NCBI GenBank assembly: GCA_003220315.1
Contig: QHSA01000150.1
Span: forward strand, 1 to 59,787
DNA: 59,787 bases
From: Candidatus Rokuibacteriota bacterium
GTDB taxonomy: Bacteria > Methylomirabilota > Methylomirabilia > Rokubacteriales > CSP1-6
Direction: 5' to 3'
Position numbers and translations under genes: made by a program. Numbering within the stretch: position 1 is the first letter of the stretch; every line of letters starts with the position of its first letter. This document shows positions 6,465-16,236 of this stretch, piece after piece. The notes below the pieces were generated by a model that saw only the letters and a program-made list of their open reading frames with translations, made no database searches and had not been told where the DNA came from.

Positions 6465-8747
6465 ATGGCGGCCGAGCTCGCGATCCTCGAGAGGATCCAG
6501 CGGAAAGTGCTGTGGCTCGCCACGTGGATGGTCCACTGGGCGAACACCCGCCCGAACGCCGACGGGACGAAGGTCGGCGGCCACCAGGCCTCCTCGGCGT
6601 CGGTCGTCAGTCTCCTGACGGCGCTGTACTTCAAGGCCCTCCGGTCGGACGACCTCGTCGCCGTCAAGGCGCACGCCGCGCCCGCGTTCTACGCGATCCA
6701 GTACCTGCGCGGGAGACTGCCCGCGGCCGCGCTGGCGGAGCTCAGGTCGTTCGGCGGGCTCCAGGCGTACCCGAGCCGGCGAAAGAACCCGGAGGTCGTG
6801 GACATCTCCACGGGCTCGATGGGGCTCGGCGCCGTCCAGGCGACGTTCGGCGCGCTGGCGTCGCGCTACGTCGCCGACCACGGAGGCGCGGCGGCTCCGG
6901 GGCGCGTCATCGTCATGGTCGGCGACGCCGAGCTCGACGAGGGTAACGTCTGGGAGGCGCTCGCCGAGGAAGCGGTGCAGGGGCTCGGGCGCGTCCTCTG
7001 GATCGTCGACGTGAACCGCCAGGCGCTCGACCGCGTCGTTCCCGACGCGCGCACCCGCCAGCTCGGCGCGATGTTCTCGGCGTGCGGCTGGCGGGTCATC
7101 GAGCTTCGCTGGGGCCGGCGACTCCGTGCCCTCTCGAAGAGGCCCGGGGGCGCGCGCCTCGAGCGACGGCTCGAGGCCATGTCGAACGCCGAGTATCAGC
7201 GCCTGCTGCGCTTGGCCCCCGCGGCCGTGAGGAAGGCGCTCGTCACCGGTCCCGGCGGCAAGGCCGACGCGACGCTCGACCGCCTCCTCGCTCGGACGGG
7301 CGATGACGAGGTGGCGGCGCTCGTCGGCGACCTGGGCGGCCACGACCTTGCGGCGATCCTCGCGGCGCTCGACGAGGCGGAGACGGAGCGCGCGCGACCG
7401 AGCGTCATCCTCGCCCACACGCTCAAGGGCTGGGGGCTGCCCCTTGCCGGCGATCCGCTGAATCACACGATGCTCCTCACCCCCGCCCAGATCGCCGAGC
7501 TGCGCGACTCGCTCGGGATCGCGCCGGGCGCGGAGTGGGAGGGGTTCCTGCCGGGCAGCGACGAGGCCGAGTGGGTGCGGCGGCTCCCGCCGCTCTTCAC
7601 GCCGCCCCCGGCCCGCGCCGTCCCCCCCATCCCCTTCGAGATCGACGAGGCGTATCCGGCCGAGAGCTCGACCCAGGAGGCGTTCGGGCGGACGCTCGGT
7701 GCGCTCGCCCGACTACCGGGCGCCGCGGCCATCGTGACCGTGTCGGCCGACGTCGCGGTGACGACGCACCTCGCGGGATGGATCAACCGGAAGGGCGTCT
7801 ACTTCCCGACGCCGAAGCCCCACGCGTTCGCCGATCTGCCGCTCGCGGTCCAGTGGAAGGAGTCGCCGGCAGGCCAGCACATCGAGCTCGGGATCGCGGA
7901 GCACAACCTCTTTCTCCTGCTCGGCGCTCTCGGGCTGACGCGCGAGATGTCAGGTGTGACGTTGCTCCCCATCGGGACGCTCTACGATCCCTTCGTCCCG
8001 CGCGGCCTGGACGCCCTCTACCATGCCCTCTACTCGGGCGCGAGCTTCCTCGTGGTCGCCACGCCCTCGGGCGTGAGCCTGGCGCCGGAAGGCGGCGCCC
8101 ACCAGTCGGTGATCACGCCCGGCATCGGGGTCGCGCTACCGGCGATCGCCTACTTCGAGCCGGCCTTCGCGCGGGAGGTCGAGTGGATCCTCCTCGACGC
8201 GCTCCGCGGCCTCGCCGACCGGACGGGCGCGAGCGTGTATCTGAGATTGTCGACGAAGCCGGTGGACCAGTCCCTCGCGCCGCCGCCGAGCCCCGAGTAC
8301 CGCGCGTGCGTCCTCCGCGGGGGCTACCGCTTGATCGACGCCCGCGGCGAACCCGGCTGGGATCCGGAGGACAACGCGGTCCACCTCTTCGCCGCCGGCG
8401 CGATGGTCCCGGAGGCCGTCGACGCGAGCCGCCGTCTCCGCGAGCACGGCGTCCTCGCGAGCGTCTTCGTCGTCACGAGCCCCGACCACCTCTATCGGGA
8501 TCTGCGCGGCCCGGCGCCCTACCTCGAGACCCTCGTGGGCGCCGACGAGGAGGGGGTGCCGGTGGTGTCGGTGCTCGACGGCCACTCCCACGCCCTCGCG
8601 TTCATCGGCGCGGCGCTCGGCGTGCCGCAGCTCGCGCTGGGCGTGGACGACTTCGGCCAGTCGGGAGCGCGCGCCGCCCTCTATCGCCACTACGGCATCG
8701 ACGCCGCCGCGATCGTCCAGGCGGCGACGGTCCTCCTGGGCGGCTGA
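6465..8747 (+). CDS. AceE-like transketolase (ThDP-dependent pyruvate dehydrogenase E1 homologue)
   Basis: Thiamine-diphosphate enzyme of 760 residues related to homodimeric pyruvate dehydrogenase E1. Visible blocks are GGHQASSASVVSLLTALYF near the N terminus, VKAHAAPAFYAIQYL, DISTGSMGLG, the ThDP/Mg motif GDAELDEGNVWEAL with VDVNRQ, AHTLKGWGLPLAGDPLNH, and the C-terminal pyrimidine-binding part with QHIELGIAEHNLFL and GVDDFGQSG. It is shorter than classical AceE (nearly 900 residues). No lipoyl E2 or E3 gene lies nearby, so it may act alone on a 2-oxo acid or sugar phosphate; the substrate cannot be told from sequence. It lies between the liv operon and glcD. Confidence 0.85.
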   Translation: MAAELAILERIQRKVLWLATWMVHWANTRPNADGTKVGGHQASSASVVSLLTALYFKALRSDDLVAVKAHAAPAFYAIQYLRGRLPAAALAELRSFGGLQAYPSRRKNPEVVDISTGSMGLGAVQATFGALASRYVADHGGAAAPGRVIVMVGDAELDEGNVWEALAEEAVQGLGRVLWIVDVNRQALDRVVPDARTRQLGAMFSACGWRVIELRWGRRLRALSKRPGGARLERRLEAMSNAEYQRLLRLAPAAVRKALVTGPGGKADATLDRLLARTGDDEVAALVGDLGGHDLAAILAALDEAETERARPSVILAHTLKGWGLPLAGDPLNHTMLLTPAQIAELRDSLGIAPGAEWEGFLPGSDEAEWVRRLPPLFTPPPARAVPPIPFEIDEAYPAESSTQEAFGRTLGALARLPGAAAIVTVSADVAVTTHLAGWINRKGVYFPTPKPHAFADLPLAVQWKESPAGQHIELGIAEHNLFLLLGALGLTREMSGVTLLPIGTLYDPFVPRGLDALYHALYSGASFLVVATPSGVSLAPEGGAHQSVITPGIGVALPAIAYFEPAFAREVEWILLDALRGLADRTGASVYLRLSTKPVDQSLAPPPSPEYRACVLRGGYRLIDARGEPGWDPEDNAVHLFAAGAMVPEAVDASRRLREHGVLASVFVVTSPDHLYRDLRGPAPYLETLVGADEEGVPVVSVLDGHSHALAFIGAALGVPQLALGVDDFGQSGARAALYRHYGIDAAAIVQAATVLLGG

Positions 8748-8793
8748 CGCGCGAGCGGCTCCGACGCGCTGTCCCCGGCCTGCGCCGGCACGG

Positions 8794-8799
8794 TATAAT
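8794..8799 (+). promoter_or_regulatory. Perfect -10 box (TATAAT) before glcD
   Basis: A consensus TATAAT ends 10 nt before the glcD ATG at 8810. The expected transcription start would leave a leader of only about 4 nt. There is no Shine-Dalgarno sequence and no clear -35 element. Confidence 0.6.
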
Positions 8800-8809
8800 C
8801 CGAGCCACC

Positions 8810-10285
8810 ATGGCCACCCTGACCGAGTCCAGGAAGCGCGAGCTGCGGCGGGATCTCGAGGCGATCGTCGGCCGCGGCGCGGTGCTCTCCGACCCCGAGG
8901 AGCTGCTCGTCTATGAGTCCGACGGCCTCACGCTCTTCCGGGCGCTGGCGGACTTCGTCGTCTTCCCCACCTCCGCGGAGCACGTGGCCGCGGTCGTCCG
9001 GCTCGCGAACCGCGCGGAGCTGCCTTTCGTGGCGCGCGGCGCCGGGACGGGGCTCTCGGGCGGATGCCTGCCGGCGGAGGGGGGCATCGTGCTCTCGATG
9101 ATGCGGATGAACCGCGTCCTCGAGGTGGACTACGACAACCAGCTCGCGGTCGTCGAGCCGGGCCTCGTGAACCTCCACCTCTCCTCCCGGGTCGGGCCGA
9201 AGGGCTACTACTACGCGCCCGATCCGTCGAGCCAGCAGGCGTGCACGATCGGCGGGAACATCGCCAACAACTCGGGCGGCCCGCACACGCTGAAGTACGG
9301 CGTCACGACGAACCATGTGCTGGGGCTCGAGGTCGTGATGCCGGACGGCGAGATCGTCTGGCTCGGCGGGAAGACCCGCGAGGCGCCCGGCTACGACCTC
9401 GCCGGCGTGTTCGTCGGCTCCGAGGGCACGTTCGGCATCGCCACGAAGGTGGTCGTGCGCATACTCAAGAAGCCGCAGGCGGTCAAGACGGTGCTGGCCG
9501 TCTTCGAGCACGTGGATGGGGCGTCCGAGGCGGTCTCGGCCATCATCGCGCGCGGGCTCGTGCCCGCCGCCGTGGAGATGATCGACCAGCTGACGATCCA
9601 GGCCGTCGAGGACGCATTCGGCTGCGGCTACCCACGCGACGCCGCCGCCGCGCTCCTCGTCGAGCTCGACGGCCTCGCCGTCGGCATGGCGGCCCAGACC
9701 GAGCGGATCGTCGCGGCGTGTCGCGACGCGGGCGCCCGCGAGATCCGTACCGCGCGCGACGAAGCCGAGCGCGCGCTCCTGTGGAAGGGGCGCAAGTCGG
9801 CGTTCGGCGCGTACGGGCGGGTGTCGCCCGCGTACATGGTGATGGACGGCGTGATCCCGCGCACGAAGCTCCCGTACGTGCTCCGCCGCGTGAACGAGAT
9901 CGTCGCCGCTCACGGGCTCAGGGTCGGGAACGTCTTCCACGCGGGCGACGGCAACCTCCACCCGAACATCCTCTACGATCCGCGCCGGCCGGGCGAGGAG
10001 GCGCGCGTGGTGGCGGCGGGGGCGGAGATCATGAAGGTCTGCGCGGAGGTCGGTGGCTCGATCTCCGGCGAGCACGGCATCGGCCTCGAAAAATCGGATT
10101 TCATGCCGCTCATCTTTTCGGCGGCCGACCTCGCCCTCATGCGCCGGCTCAAGAATGCGTTCAATCCCACGGGGCTCTGCAACCCGGGCAAGGTGTTCCC
10201 CACGAAGAAATCCTGCGTCGAGGTCGGGCCGGTCGCCTACCGGCCGCACGCGATCGAGGAAAAGGGTCTGGCCCAGCGCTTCTAG
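8810..10285 (+). CDS. glcD: Glycolate/D-lactate oxidase FAD subunit GlcD-like
   Basis: FAD-linked 2-hydroxy-acid dehydrogenase of 491 residues, the expected length for GlcD. The PCMH-type FAD-binding domain shows VARGAGTGLSGG, the conserved PDPSSQQACTIGGNIANNSGGPH, and APGYDLAGVFVGSEGTFGI. The C-terminal FAD-oxidase domain ends with NVFHAGDGNLHPNIL, GSISGEHGIG and FNPTGLCNPGKVFP. The start follows the TATAAT box closely, making this the first gene of a glcD-glcE-glcF operon (18 nt to glcE). The complex would oxidise glycolate or a related hydroxy acid at the membrane and pass electrons to the quinone pool. Confidence 0.93.
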   Translation: MATLTESRKRELRRDLEAIVGRGAVLSDPEELLVYESDGLTLFRALADFVVFPTSAEHVAAVVRLANRAELPFVARGAGTGLSGGCLPAEGGIVLSMMRMNRVLEVDYDNQLAVVEPGLVNLHLSSRVGPKGYYYAPDPSSQQACTIGGNIANNSGGPHTLKYGVTTNHVLGLEVVMPDGEIVWLGGKTREAPGYDLAGVFVGSEGTFGIATKVVVRILKKPQAVKTVLAVFEHVDGASEAVSAIIARGLVPAAVEMIDQLTIQAVEDAFGCGYPRDAAAALLVELDGLAVGMAAQTERIVAACRDAGAREIRTARDEAERALLWKGRKSAFGAYGRVSPAYMVMDGVIPRTKLPYVLRRVNEIVAAHGLRVGNVFHAGDGNLHPNILYDPRRPGEEARVVAAGAEIMKVCAEVGGSISGEHGIGLEKSDFMPLIFSAADLALMRRLKNAFNPTGLCNPGKVFPTKKSCVEVGPVAYRPHAIEEKGLAQRF

Positions 10286-10303: not shown

Positions 10304-12187
10304 GTGCAGGACGGCCTGCTCGAGAGACTGCGCACCATCGTCGGCGCGCCGAACGTCCTGACGGGCGTCGAGCTCTCCCCGTACGTCGTCGAGGGCCGCA
10401 CGCCCGACGCCGCCGTCTTCCCCGGCTCGGTCGAAGAGGTCTCGGCCGTAATCGCGCTCGTTGGAGAGTTTGGGCTGCCGGTGATCCCGTGGGGCGGCGG
10501 CACGGCGGCGTCCGTCGGCCTGCCCTCGGCGCGCGCGGGGCTGGTGCTCGGGCTCCGTCGCCTGAACCGCCTCGTGGAGCACGAGCCGGGCGACCTGACG
10601 GTCACGGTCGAGGCCGGCACGACGATGGGAGAGCTCCAGGCGGCGCTCCGCGGCCGCGGCCAGTGGCTCTCGCTCGACCCCGCCGATGCCGAGCGGGCGA
10701 CGATCGGCGGCGTGCTCGCGACGAACGCCTCGGGGCCGCGGCGGCACCTCTACGGGACGGCGCGCGATCTGCTCATCGGTGTCACGGTCGTGACCGCCGA
10801 GGGCGCGATCGTGAAGGGCGGCGGCAAGGTGGTGAAGAACGTCGCGGGCTACGACCTGCCGAAGCTCTTCGTCGGCTCTTACGGTACGCTCGGGGTCATC
10901 GTGGAGGCCACCTTCAAGCTCCGGCCACGTCCGGACGACGAGCGCCTGATGTGCGTCGGCTTCGATCGATTGAAAGACGCGGGCGCAGCGGTGCGCGCCC
11001 TGATGGCGTCCGATCTGATCCCCAGTGCCGTCGAGCTCCTCGACGGGACCGCGGCATTCGGCGGAGGGGGAACCGGAGGGGCGCTTGGGCTCGGACCGAC
11101 ACTCGCCGGCGCTGCCCCGGCCCCCCCGACGCCGGGCGCGGTGCTCGTCGTTGGGTTCGACGGACTCGGCGAGCAGGTGGAGTGGCAGTGCGCCGAGCTC
11201 ACGCGCCTGACGGCGCAGCTCGGTGGGCACCACCCACGCGCGCTCGCCTCGGAGGTGTGGCCGAGGCTGGCGCTGGGGGCGCGCGCGGCGTTCCCTGTCG
11301 TGACCGCCGTGGGCGCGATCGTGAAGGGCGGCGGCAAGGTGGTGAAGAACGTCGCGGGCTACGACCTGCCGAAGCTCTTCGTCGGCTCTTACGGTACGCT
11401 CGGGGTCATCGTGGAGGCCACCTTCAAGCTCCGGCCACGTCCGGACGACGAGCGCCTGATGTGCGTCGGCTTCGATCGATTGAAAGACGCGGGCGCAGCG
11501 GTGCGCGCCCTGATGGCGTCCGATCTGATCCCCAGTGCCGTCGAGCTCCTCGACGGGACCGCGGCATTCGGCGGAGGGGGAACCGGAGGGGCGCTTGGGC
11601 TCGGACCGACACTCGCCGGCGCTGCCCCGGCCCCCCCGACGCCGGGCGCGGTGCTCGTCGTTGGGTTCGACGGACTCGGCGAGCAGGTGGAGTGGCAGTG
11701 CGCCGAGCTCACGCGCCTGACGGCGCAGCTCGGTGGGCACCACCCACGCGCGCTCGCCTCGGAGGTGTGGCCGAGGCTGGCGCTGGGGGCGCGCGCGGCG
11801 TTCCCTGTCGTGACCGCCGTGATGGCGTTCGGTGTGCTGCCGACCCAGGTCGCCGAGCTGATGGAGCAGGGTGCGAGCGCCGCCCGGGCGCGTGGGCTCG
11901 GGACGGCGTGGGCGGCACACGCCGGCGTCGGCGCGGTGAGCGCGGCGCTCGCCACGAGTCACGAGCCGTCCGAACCGGCGCCGATCGCGGCGATCCTCGC
12001 CGAGTGGCGCGAGATCGCGCGTGCGGGTGGTGGGCGCGCGACGCTCGAGTGGGCGCCGCTCGCCGTGAAGTCACAGGTGCCGGTCTGGGACGATCCGGGC
12101 GCGGCGGGCCGAATCATGCAGCGGATCAAGGCCGAGCTCGACCCGAAGAACGTGCTGAACCCCGGCCGCTTCGTCGCCGGAATCTAA
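10304..12187 (+). CDS. glcE: Glycolate oxidase FAD-binding subunit GlcE-like with an internal 170-residue tandem duplication
   Basis: Starts at GTG 10304. The FAD-binding subunit is recognisable from VIPWGGGTAASVGLPS, TIGGVLATNASGPRRHLYGTARDLLIGV, KNVAGYDLPKLFVGSYGTLGVI and the terminal FDPKNVLNPGRF-like ending. Residues about 166-335 are repeated exactly as about 336-505, giving 627 residues instead of about 457. The duplicated block contains the end of the FAD-binding domain and part of the substrate/cap region, so the product as written would probably misfold. Removing one copy restores a normal GlcE. The gene lies between glcD and glcF in one operon. Confidence 0.88.
   Translation: MQDGLLERLRTIVGAPNVLTGVELSPYVVEGRTPDAAVFPGSVEEVSAVIALVGEFGLPVIPWGGGTAASVGLPSARAGLVLGLRRLNRLVEHEPGDLTVTVEAGTTMGELQAALRGRGQWLSLDPADAERATIGGVLATNASGPRRHLYGTARDLLIGVTVVTAEGAIVKGGGKVVKNVAGYDLPKLFVGSYGTLGVIVEATFKLRPRPDDERLMCVGFDRLKDAGAAVRALMASDLIPSAVELLDGTAAFGGGGTGGALGLGPTLAGAAPAPPTPGAVLVVGFDGLGEQVEWQCAELTRLTAQLGGHHPRALASEVWPRLALGARAAFPVVTAVGAIVKGGGKVVKNVAGYDLPKLFVGSYGTLGVIVEATFKLRPRPDDERLMCVGFDRLKDAGAAVRALMASDLIPSAVELLDGTAAFGGGGTGGALGLGPTLAGAAPAPPTPGAVLVVGFDGLGEQVEWQCAELTRLTAQLGGHHPRALASEVWPRLALGARAAFPVVTAVMAFGVLPTQVAELMEQGASAARARGLGTAWAAHAGVGAVSAALATSHEPSEPAPIAAILAEWREIARAGGGRATLEWAPLAVKSQVPVWDDPGAAGRIMQRIKAELDPKNVLNPGRFVAGI
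10801..11820 (+). repeat. Perfect 510-bp tandem duplication inside glcE
   Basis: 10801-11310 and 11311-11820 are identical as far as I can read, and 510 is a multiple of three, so the frame is kept. A 13-nt sequence (GTCGTGACCGCCG) lies just before the first copy, at the junction and at the end of the second copy. This is what slippage or recombination between two short repeats 510 bp apart would leave. The near-perfect identity means it is very recent or an assembly artefact. Confidence 0.9.
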
Positions 12188-12214: not shown

Positions 12215-13543
12215 ATGGCGCACACAGTCCAGGAGTCGCCCGCGAAGATCCCGGGGCCGCTCACGCTCCACGGGCTCTCCGTCGAGGGCGTCAACCAGTG
12301 CGTCCACTGCGGGCTCTGCCTCGCGTCCTGCCCGACGTTTTCCGAGCTCGGCACGGAGATGGATTCGCCGCGCGGCCGCATCTTTCTCATCAAGTCGCTC
12401 GCGGAGGGACGGATCGCCCTCACGGATAGCGTGGCGGACCATCTCTCGCTCTGCCTCGACTGCCGCGCGTGTGAGACCGTGTGCCCGGCCGGCGTGCCCT
12501 ACGGTGGGCTCATCGAGGCCGCGAAGGCCGAGATGGAGCACCGACGGCCGGGTTCGCCCGCCCGCCGCCTCTTTCGCTGGCTGAACTTCGGGCTGCTCCT
12601 GGGCCATCCGCGGCTCCTCGGGCTGGCCGCCGCCGGGCTCCGCCTCTATCAGACCTGCGGTCTCCAGTTCCTCGTCCGCTCGAGCGGGATCGTGCGGGTC
12701 CTCCCGAGGACCCTGCGGGCGTGGGAGTCGCTGCTCCCGCCGCTGCCCTCGCGAGCGGAGCGCGCACCGCTGCCGCGGCTCGTCACCGCCGAGGGTCCGC
12801 GGCGCGCCCGCGTGGCATTGCTCACCGGATGCGTCCAGGCGGTCGTCTTCGGCGCCCATAACCGTGCGACCGCGCGCGTGCTCGCGAAGAACGGCTGCGA
12901 CGTCGTCGTGCCCGAGGGCCAGGGATGCTGCGGCGCGCTCAACGCCCACGGCGGAGATCACGCGCGCGCCCTCGCCCTGGCCCGCCGGACGATCGACGCC
13001 TTCGAGGCCGCTCGGGCGGAGGCCGTGATCGTCAACACCTCGGGCTGCGGGGCGCACATGAAGGCGTACGGCCGCCTGCTCGGCGCCGACCCGGCGTACG
13101 CGGAGCGCGCGAGGCGCTTCGCCGCGTCGGTCGTCGATCTGGCGGAGTTCCTCGCGCGGGCGCCGCTACGTGGGCCGCTCTCCCCGGTGCCCCTGACGGT
13201 GACCTATCACGACCCGTGTCACGTCGTGCACGGCCAGAAGCTCAGGGGGGAGCCGCGTCGGCTCCTGGCGCAAATCCCCGGGCTCCGGATCGTCGAGCTC
13301 ACCGAGTCCGATTGGTGCTGCGGGTCGGCGGGCATCTACAACCTCACGCAGCCCGAGATGGCGACGCGCCTCTTGCAGCGGAAGGTGAGTCACGTCCTCG
13401 CGACCGGCGCCGACGCGGTCGTCACCGCCAACCCCGGCTGCATCCTCCAGATCCAGGCCGGGCTCGCCGCCCAGCGGTCGGCTATGCGGGTGCTCCACCT
13501 CGTCGAGCTGCTCGACCGCGCGTACGGCGCGCCGCCGCGCTGA
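12215..13543 (+). CDS. glcF: Glycolate oxidase iron-sulfur subunit GlcF-like
   Basis: Electron-transfer subunit of the hydroxy-acid oxidase, 442 residues. Two 4Fe-4S ferredoxin-type motifs are seen at the N terminus (CVHCGLCLASCP and CLDCRACETVCP). Two CCG domains follow, with GCCGALNAHGGD and WCCGSAGIYN, as in heterodisulfide-reductase-like proteins. It starts 27 nt after glcE, with a purine-rich GGGGAAAGGGG before the ATG. It completes glcDEF. Confidence 0.94.
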   Translation: MAHTVQESPAKIPGPLTLHGLSVEGVNQCVHCGLCLASCPTFSELGTEMDSPRGRIFLIKSLAEGRIALTDSVADHLSLCLDCRACETVCPAGVPYGGLIEAAKAEMEHRRPGSPARRLFRWLNFGLLLGHPRLLGLAAAGLRLYQTCGLQFLVRSSGIVRVLPRTLRAWESLLPPLPSRAERAPLPRLVTAEGPRRARVALLTGCVQAVVFGAHNRATARVLAKNGCDVVVPEGQGCCGALNAHGGDHARALALARRTIDAFEAARAEAVIVNTSGCGAHMKAYGRLLGADPAYAERARRFAASVVDLAEFLARAPLRGPLSPVPLTVTYHDPCHVVHGQKLRGEPRRLLAQIPGLRIVELTESDWCCGSAGIYNLTQPEMATRLLQRKVSHVLATGADAVVTANPGCILQIQAGLAAQRSAMRVLHLVELLDRAYGAPPR

Positions 13544-15936: not shown

Positions 15937-16236
15937 CGCGCGCTCACGCGACCTTTTTCGGCGATCGCTCCGTGTCTGTCAAGCCGCCGACCCGGGGGTG
16001 CCAAAGTGGACGCCCCGCTTGCGGGGGTGCCAAAGTGGACGCTCGCCGTACGCCGCAAGTCGCGGATTCTCTTGTTCTCCCTAGATATGGAGTTCGCCTT
16101 GCACGAGCGATCAACGGAGAGCGGAAACCCGTGCACAGCCTGCTGAGCGGAGGGCTCACGATCGAGGGCGACCGGATGGTCAGCCAGCTGCGCGGCTCGA
16201 GCGCACGCATCGTCTTGACACGGCTCCGCTGAGCCC
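15937..16236. other. Gap without a recognisable gene
   Basis: This 300-nt stretch separates divergent transcription units. It holds the pair of 21-nt repeats and a short open frame ending at 16232 whose last 30 residues or so (starting near GGLTIEGDRMV) look protein-like but match nothing I know. A TTGACA hexamer at 16215-16220 has no matching -10 box downstream. Confidence 0.4.
15993..16042 (+). repeat. Pair of 21-nt direct repeats 29 nt apart
   Basis: CGGGGGTGCCAAAGTGGACG(C) occurs at 15993-16013 and again at 16022-16042. Repeated GTGCCAAAGTGGAC-like units resemble the multiple terminal repeats of IS21-family elements, but no transposase gene is present, so this could be an end remnant only. 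Confidence 0.5.

Follow-up and report, generated by a model that had tools for sequence, protein, structure and literature searches.

Among the described systems closest to the locus analyzed here are spontaneous tandem duplications inside open reading frames (ORFs) of pneumococcal capsule genes, which, according to titles cited in PMC4022640, control phase variation (Waite et al., 2001, 2003). Loss of long repeated segments has been described in Deinococcus, where 438-bp direct repeats, separated by a 1,479-bp spacer and not strictly tandem, underwent deletion with a median frequency of 6.5x10^-4 (PMC4627823). Metagenome assemblies, for their part, may contain wrong repeat numbers as well as artificial concatenations of identical sequence, both described by Chen et al. 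(2020, PMC7111523).

In the window, that is, the whole stretch of DNA analyzed (59,787 bases), the original prediction placed a perfect 510-bp in-frame tandem duplication in glcE, with a 13-nt sequence at all three borders and 170 added residues, and these structural claims were borne out. Bases 10801-11310 and 11311-11820 are identical 510-bp units arranged head to tail and in frame, and the ORF stays open through both, encoding a product of 627 aa, compared with 457 aa when one copy is left out. The exact run at an offset of 510 is 511 nt long, with the extra base at 11821 (G) also matching, and the two copies agree at all 511 positions compared (0 differences; 95% upper bound 0.58%). The 13-nt sequence GTCGTGACCGCCG begins at 10787, 11297, and 11807 and occurs at no other place in the window on either strand. 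The features of the locus are as follows.

7535..10285, + strand: open frame with the GlcD-like subunit (Pfam/NCBIfam), upstream; domain matches from residue 428 or later
10304..12187, + strand: ORF of the GlcE-like FAD-linked subunit with the duplication, an open frame of 627 aa; Pfam FAD_binding_4 and FAD-oxidase_C; NCBIfam GlcE 220.2 bits (cut-off 284)
10787..10799, + strand: 13-nt border repeat 1, exact match, encoding VVTA; next base A
10801..11310, + strand: copy 1 of the 510-bp unit, residues 166-335, identical to copy 2
11297..11309, + strand: 13-nt border repeat 2, exact match, the hybrid duplication junction; T as at border 3, then border-1 sequence
11311..11820, + strand: copy 2 of the 510-bp unit, residues 336-505, identical to copy 1
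11807..11819, + strand: 13-nt border repeat 3, exact match; next base T
12215..13543, + strand: GlcF-like iron-sulphur subunit, downstream; Pfam Fer4-type domains and CCG; NCBIfam GlcF 318.4 bits (cut-off 333)

The duplicated gene encodes a protein matching FAD_binding_4 (129.4 bits) and FAD-oxidase_C (98.5 bits), both above the Pfam cut-offs, and it lies in the gene order glcD-glcE-glcF, with the GlcD-like subunit upstream and the GlcF-like subunit downstream. The name glcE thus stood as far as the FAD subunit domains and the gene order are concerned, but not at the level of the equivalog: against the NCBIfam GlcE model the 627-aa protein reaches its score in three stretches and below the cut-off, a score that the duplication itself may lower, and against the NCBIfam GlcD model it reaches 256.7 bits (cut-off 567.9). 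Because the scores against both models fall below their cut-offs, 'GlcE-like' is the safer name. Since all three subunits, GlcD-, GlcE-, and GlcF-like, score below the NCBIfam equivalog cut-offs, glycolate is a probable rather than a demonstrated substrate of the glcDEF-like operon. The true start of the GlcD-like subunit probably lies inside the upstream open frame. Upstream on the same strand, frames match portions of a branched-chain amino-acid ABC transporter and a transketolase-like protein. Another contig of the same genome (C291) carries a second GlcE-like gene, which is more distant, with 52% identity over residues 27-261; positions 13521-16319 of C291 hold a second pair of FAD-subunit matches, one of them GlcE-like.

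The comparison with relatives that had been proposed as a check was performed on 94 loci (80 from a contig search and 14 from a genome search), all from other species and none from a strain of the same species. In 94/94 loci, a single match to the 510-bp unit comes after the N-terminal part, and none (0/94) carries two units; for partial-match distant relatives and eight reversed loci, the single copy rests on ORF length. In those eight loci the position filter could miss a second downstream unit, their ORFs being 417-447 aa long, and an extra upstream-side match at 28-41% identity is attributed to the GlcD-like gene next to it. Complete ORFs, available for 90 of the 94 relatives (four run off their contig), all measure 327-464 aa, and the 627-aa product is longer than every one of them. 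A separate search in 95 genomes of the phylum, the genome under study included, yielded a match in 79; in 44 of 44 genomes listing both gene ends, picked by hand from the table on that basis and with match spans used as length, the gene spans 430-460 aa.

The closest homologue, from the same genus, shows 81% identity across bases 1-1011 of the query (approximately 19% divergence). Two further genomes of the genus, with completeness ratings of 100% and 96%, gave no close DNA match and, at the protein level, a best match of 49% identity. Because a close homologue is present in only one of the three other same-genus genomes, and because the genome under study has the second GlcE-like gene on C291, the locus looks dispensable in the genus. 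The very recent origin proposed at the outset is supported by the lack of any difference between the copies, the single unit in all 94 relatives, and the divergence of the same-genus homologue. With the duplication absent from the relatives examined and zero divergence between its copies, it would be, if real, private to the lineage and very young; gene conversion between the copies could also keep them alike. An old domain repeat was rejected, the copies being identical and two units present in none of the relatives examined, as was an inserted foreign sequence, the unit being the gene's own segment that occurs once in relatives.

The borders of the duplication resemble those expected from slipped mispairing: a short direct repeat flanks the duplicated unit on either side, and the junction combines sequence from the two borders. 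The base directly 3' of the 13-mer is A at the first border (10800) and T at the second (11310) and third (11820); the border homology consists of 13 nt, one mismatch, and 1 nt. The middle junction carries the T of border 3 followed by border-1 sequence and was formed just past the mismatch. On this evidence, we somewhat favor the reading that a very recent, lineage-private in-frame duplication arose in cells by slippage, most likely impairs the FAD subunit, and is precisely removable. In such an event, a DNA strand would copy past the downstream 13-nt repeat, slip back, and re-pair at the upstream one. Because the junction keeps the T of border 3, we infer that the slipping strand had the gene's own sense: the nascent strand would copy through border 3 (GCCGTG) and, tolerating one internal mismatch, re-anneal at border 1 (GCCGAG). 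If the opposite strand had simply slipped, the junction would read A unless repaired. Recombination between the 510-bp copies would then allow precise loss of one of them; perfect tandem copies are expected to collapse to one in this way. The locus resembles RecA-independent slipped misalignment or single-strand annealing, as described in PMC4627823, in that a short direct repeat bounds the event and the hybrid junction lies within the homology, whereas here the end product is seen in one assembly, and the strand and the proteins are deduced from it.

A special recombination site at the borders is unlikely, the 13-mer being ordinary VVTA coding sequence that varies among 23 Rokubacteria-like relatives and being only one of many direct repeats of its size in the window. 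In those relatives the two borders are alike at 4-13 of 18 positions, 13 being the value for the same-genus homologue; here 14 of 18 match, as counted by eye. In the window, which has a G+C content of 71%, 33 pairs of exact direct repeats, each 13 nt or longer, lie 100-2000 bp apart when one copy of the unit is left out; direct repeats of such size are common there.

The two leading readings of the duplication are an inactivating mutation and an assembly error. According to the latter, which we consider a serious though less probable explanation, the population would carry one copy or some other number, and the assembler or gap-closing would have concatenated the unit or walked a loop built from rare or chimeric reads. 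The metagenome draft, in which the window accounts for all of contig C257, comprises 4,264,681 bases in 301 contigs and is rated 98.13% complete, and this fragmentation is in keeping with such an error. Exact repeats were compared in a genome sample of 140 stretches (C1-C80 and C241-C300, at most 20,000 bases each); five of these contained only N and were dropped, and the whole window took the place of another, so that the sample comprised 135 pieces and 1,705,952 bases (40% of the draft). The 511-nt repeat, far beyond chance, is the longest exact repeat in this sample and an outlier for this assembly, the next measuring 260 nt and the remainder at most 161 nt. Among 76 exact repeats of at least 60 nt, 9 of the 40 longest join two contig ends over 79-161 nt, which suggests a read length of about 150 bases; reads of that length would be too short to cross a 510-bp copy, and the number of copies was therefore probably deduced by the assembler. 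The assembler also appears to stop often at longer repeats, as suggested by the duplicated EF-Tu gene start at which it broke at 161 nt. The contig concerned, C79 (L236), has a 161-nt direct terminal repeat (1-161 and 16052-16212) covering the start of the EF-Tu gene, probably two tuf copies breaking the assembly; with the repeat covering a gene start, a circular element is not needed to account for it.

As in the drafts with faulty repeat counts and concatenation described by Chen et al. (2020, PMC7111523), hundreds of identical bases lie head to tail; here, in contrast, the joint consists of 13 nt and a hybrid base, and no other long tandem repeat is present in the sampled 40%. Other observations also speak against an assembly error. 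No N occurs anywhere in the window, and no general excess of concatenated repeats was found in the 1.7 of 4.26 Mb sampled: of the 17 exact tandem rows, all but the duplication (16) have periods no longer than 96 bp, which argues against a habit of concatenation. The reading frame is kept, an outcome expected by chance in 1 of 3 cases. De Bruijn assemblers work with k of 20 or more, and an artificial join normally needs an overlap of k-mer size. Because the 13-nt homology is shorter than such k-mers, graph collapse alone would not create the joint. The hybrid junction, in turn, fits a physical strand switch, but an overlap join with the consensus taken from the left piece would look identical.

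The same genome also holds another private in-frame tandem duplication, which likewise makes an assembly error less plausible. It is perfect, 96 bp (32 residues) in period, and lies in mlaC (L122 2202-2393, contig C25; - strand gene 2108-2830); the row was chosen after it had been seen to be in frame, and its frame is no independent evidence. The repeated motif occurs once each in 6 of nine relatives' loci, including that of a 92%-identical same-genus homologue, and was not found by pattern search in the other 3 of the nine; the comparison suggests that this duplication, too, is private. Its left breakpoint has a 7-bp inverted repeat (GATCGCA...TGCGATC), and no exact border homology was found at the mlaC duplication. 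In our judgement, which is not a calculation, a real duplication in cells rather than in the assembly only is fairly probable when the slippage reading is taken together with the two further variants considered below, a functional protein and a switch.

Structure prediction bears on the consequences for the protein. AlphaFold gave 91.5 pLDDT and 0.90 pTM for a one-copy relative, and 83.6 pLDDT and 0.73 pTM for the duplicated protein, in which residues 325-378, holding most of the spare FAD-domain segment, fall below 50 and are predicted to be disordered. The alignment used consisted of single-copy relatives and had little depth on the extra segment, which alone may lower confidence there; because of this bias, the models only suggest that the duplication may impair the GlcE-like FAD subunit of the glcDEF-like operon. 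It is very unlikely that the longer protein is instead a functional variant, in which copy 1 or copy 2 would form the core and the spare 170 residues would be tolerated at the hairpin turn after residue 165. In favor of such a protein are the kept frame, a breakpoint that the models place in the hairpin turn between strands 157-163 and 169-173, and the high confidence predicted for most of the FAD domain (1-210), but the spare segment comprises core motifs of that domain without a partner and is predicted to be disordered, and an insertion of this kind was seen in no relative examined. A Gly/Ala/Pro-rich stretch at 11058-11140, with its copy at 11568-11650, is approximately 20 residues longer than that of the same-genus homologue and forms a low-confidence loop in both AlphaFold models.

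The original prediction had also raised a phase-variation-like switch, and this suggestion found no support other than the ability of a perfect tandem repeat to collapse; the duplication is found in none of the relatives examined, and such border repeats are ordinary. As an evolved contingency locus, a reversible on/off switch of glycolate oxidation, the duplication would belong with long perfect direct repeats that recombine often, such as the 438-bp repeats in Deinococcus (PMC4627823), and with the capsule-gene duplications of pneumococci (titles cited in PMC4022640). However, two units were seen in none of the 94 relatives, the border repeats are neither conserved nor rare, and the gene is metabolic and lacks a close homologue in two of the three other same-genus genomes; we regard such a switch as highly improbable. 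Scarcely any more credence can be given to a duplication present in part of the population only, toggling glycolate oxidation whenever slippage or precise collapse recurs at ordinary coding microhomology. The locus shares with the pneumococcal capsule genes a perfect tandem duplication within an ORF and one-copy alleles elsewhere; it differs from them, as they are described in PMC4022640, in affecting a metabolic gene of an uncultured lineage, in being in frame, and in offering no evidence of reversion, alternating phenotypes, or recurrence. By analogy, the GlcE-like case would at most work like the capsule duplications.

The duplication is ordinary in kind, and, real or artefact, it changes little in understanding. 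If real, it would add a further natural example, from an uncultured lineage, of a tandem duplication caught soon after arising within a gene, which is a known type of mutation; taken with the mlaC case, it would hint that in this lineage such events last long enough to be sampled. If an artefact, it would mean that protein lengths from metagenome drafts need read checks. Within the titles and abstract openings of the literature searched, none matched a duplication in a glcE-like gene, a statement that concerns those records rather than print as a whole. Elsewhere in the sample, short tandem repeats, their periods being 65, 68, and 44 bp, are scattered over several contigs (L161, L181, L185, L150, L165, L216, L120, and L234) and possibly represent dispersed repeat families. 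An imperfect 675-bp direct repeat containing a 260-nt exact stretch lies at L166 2533-3883 (contig C269).
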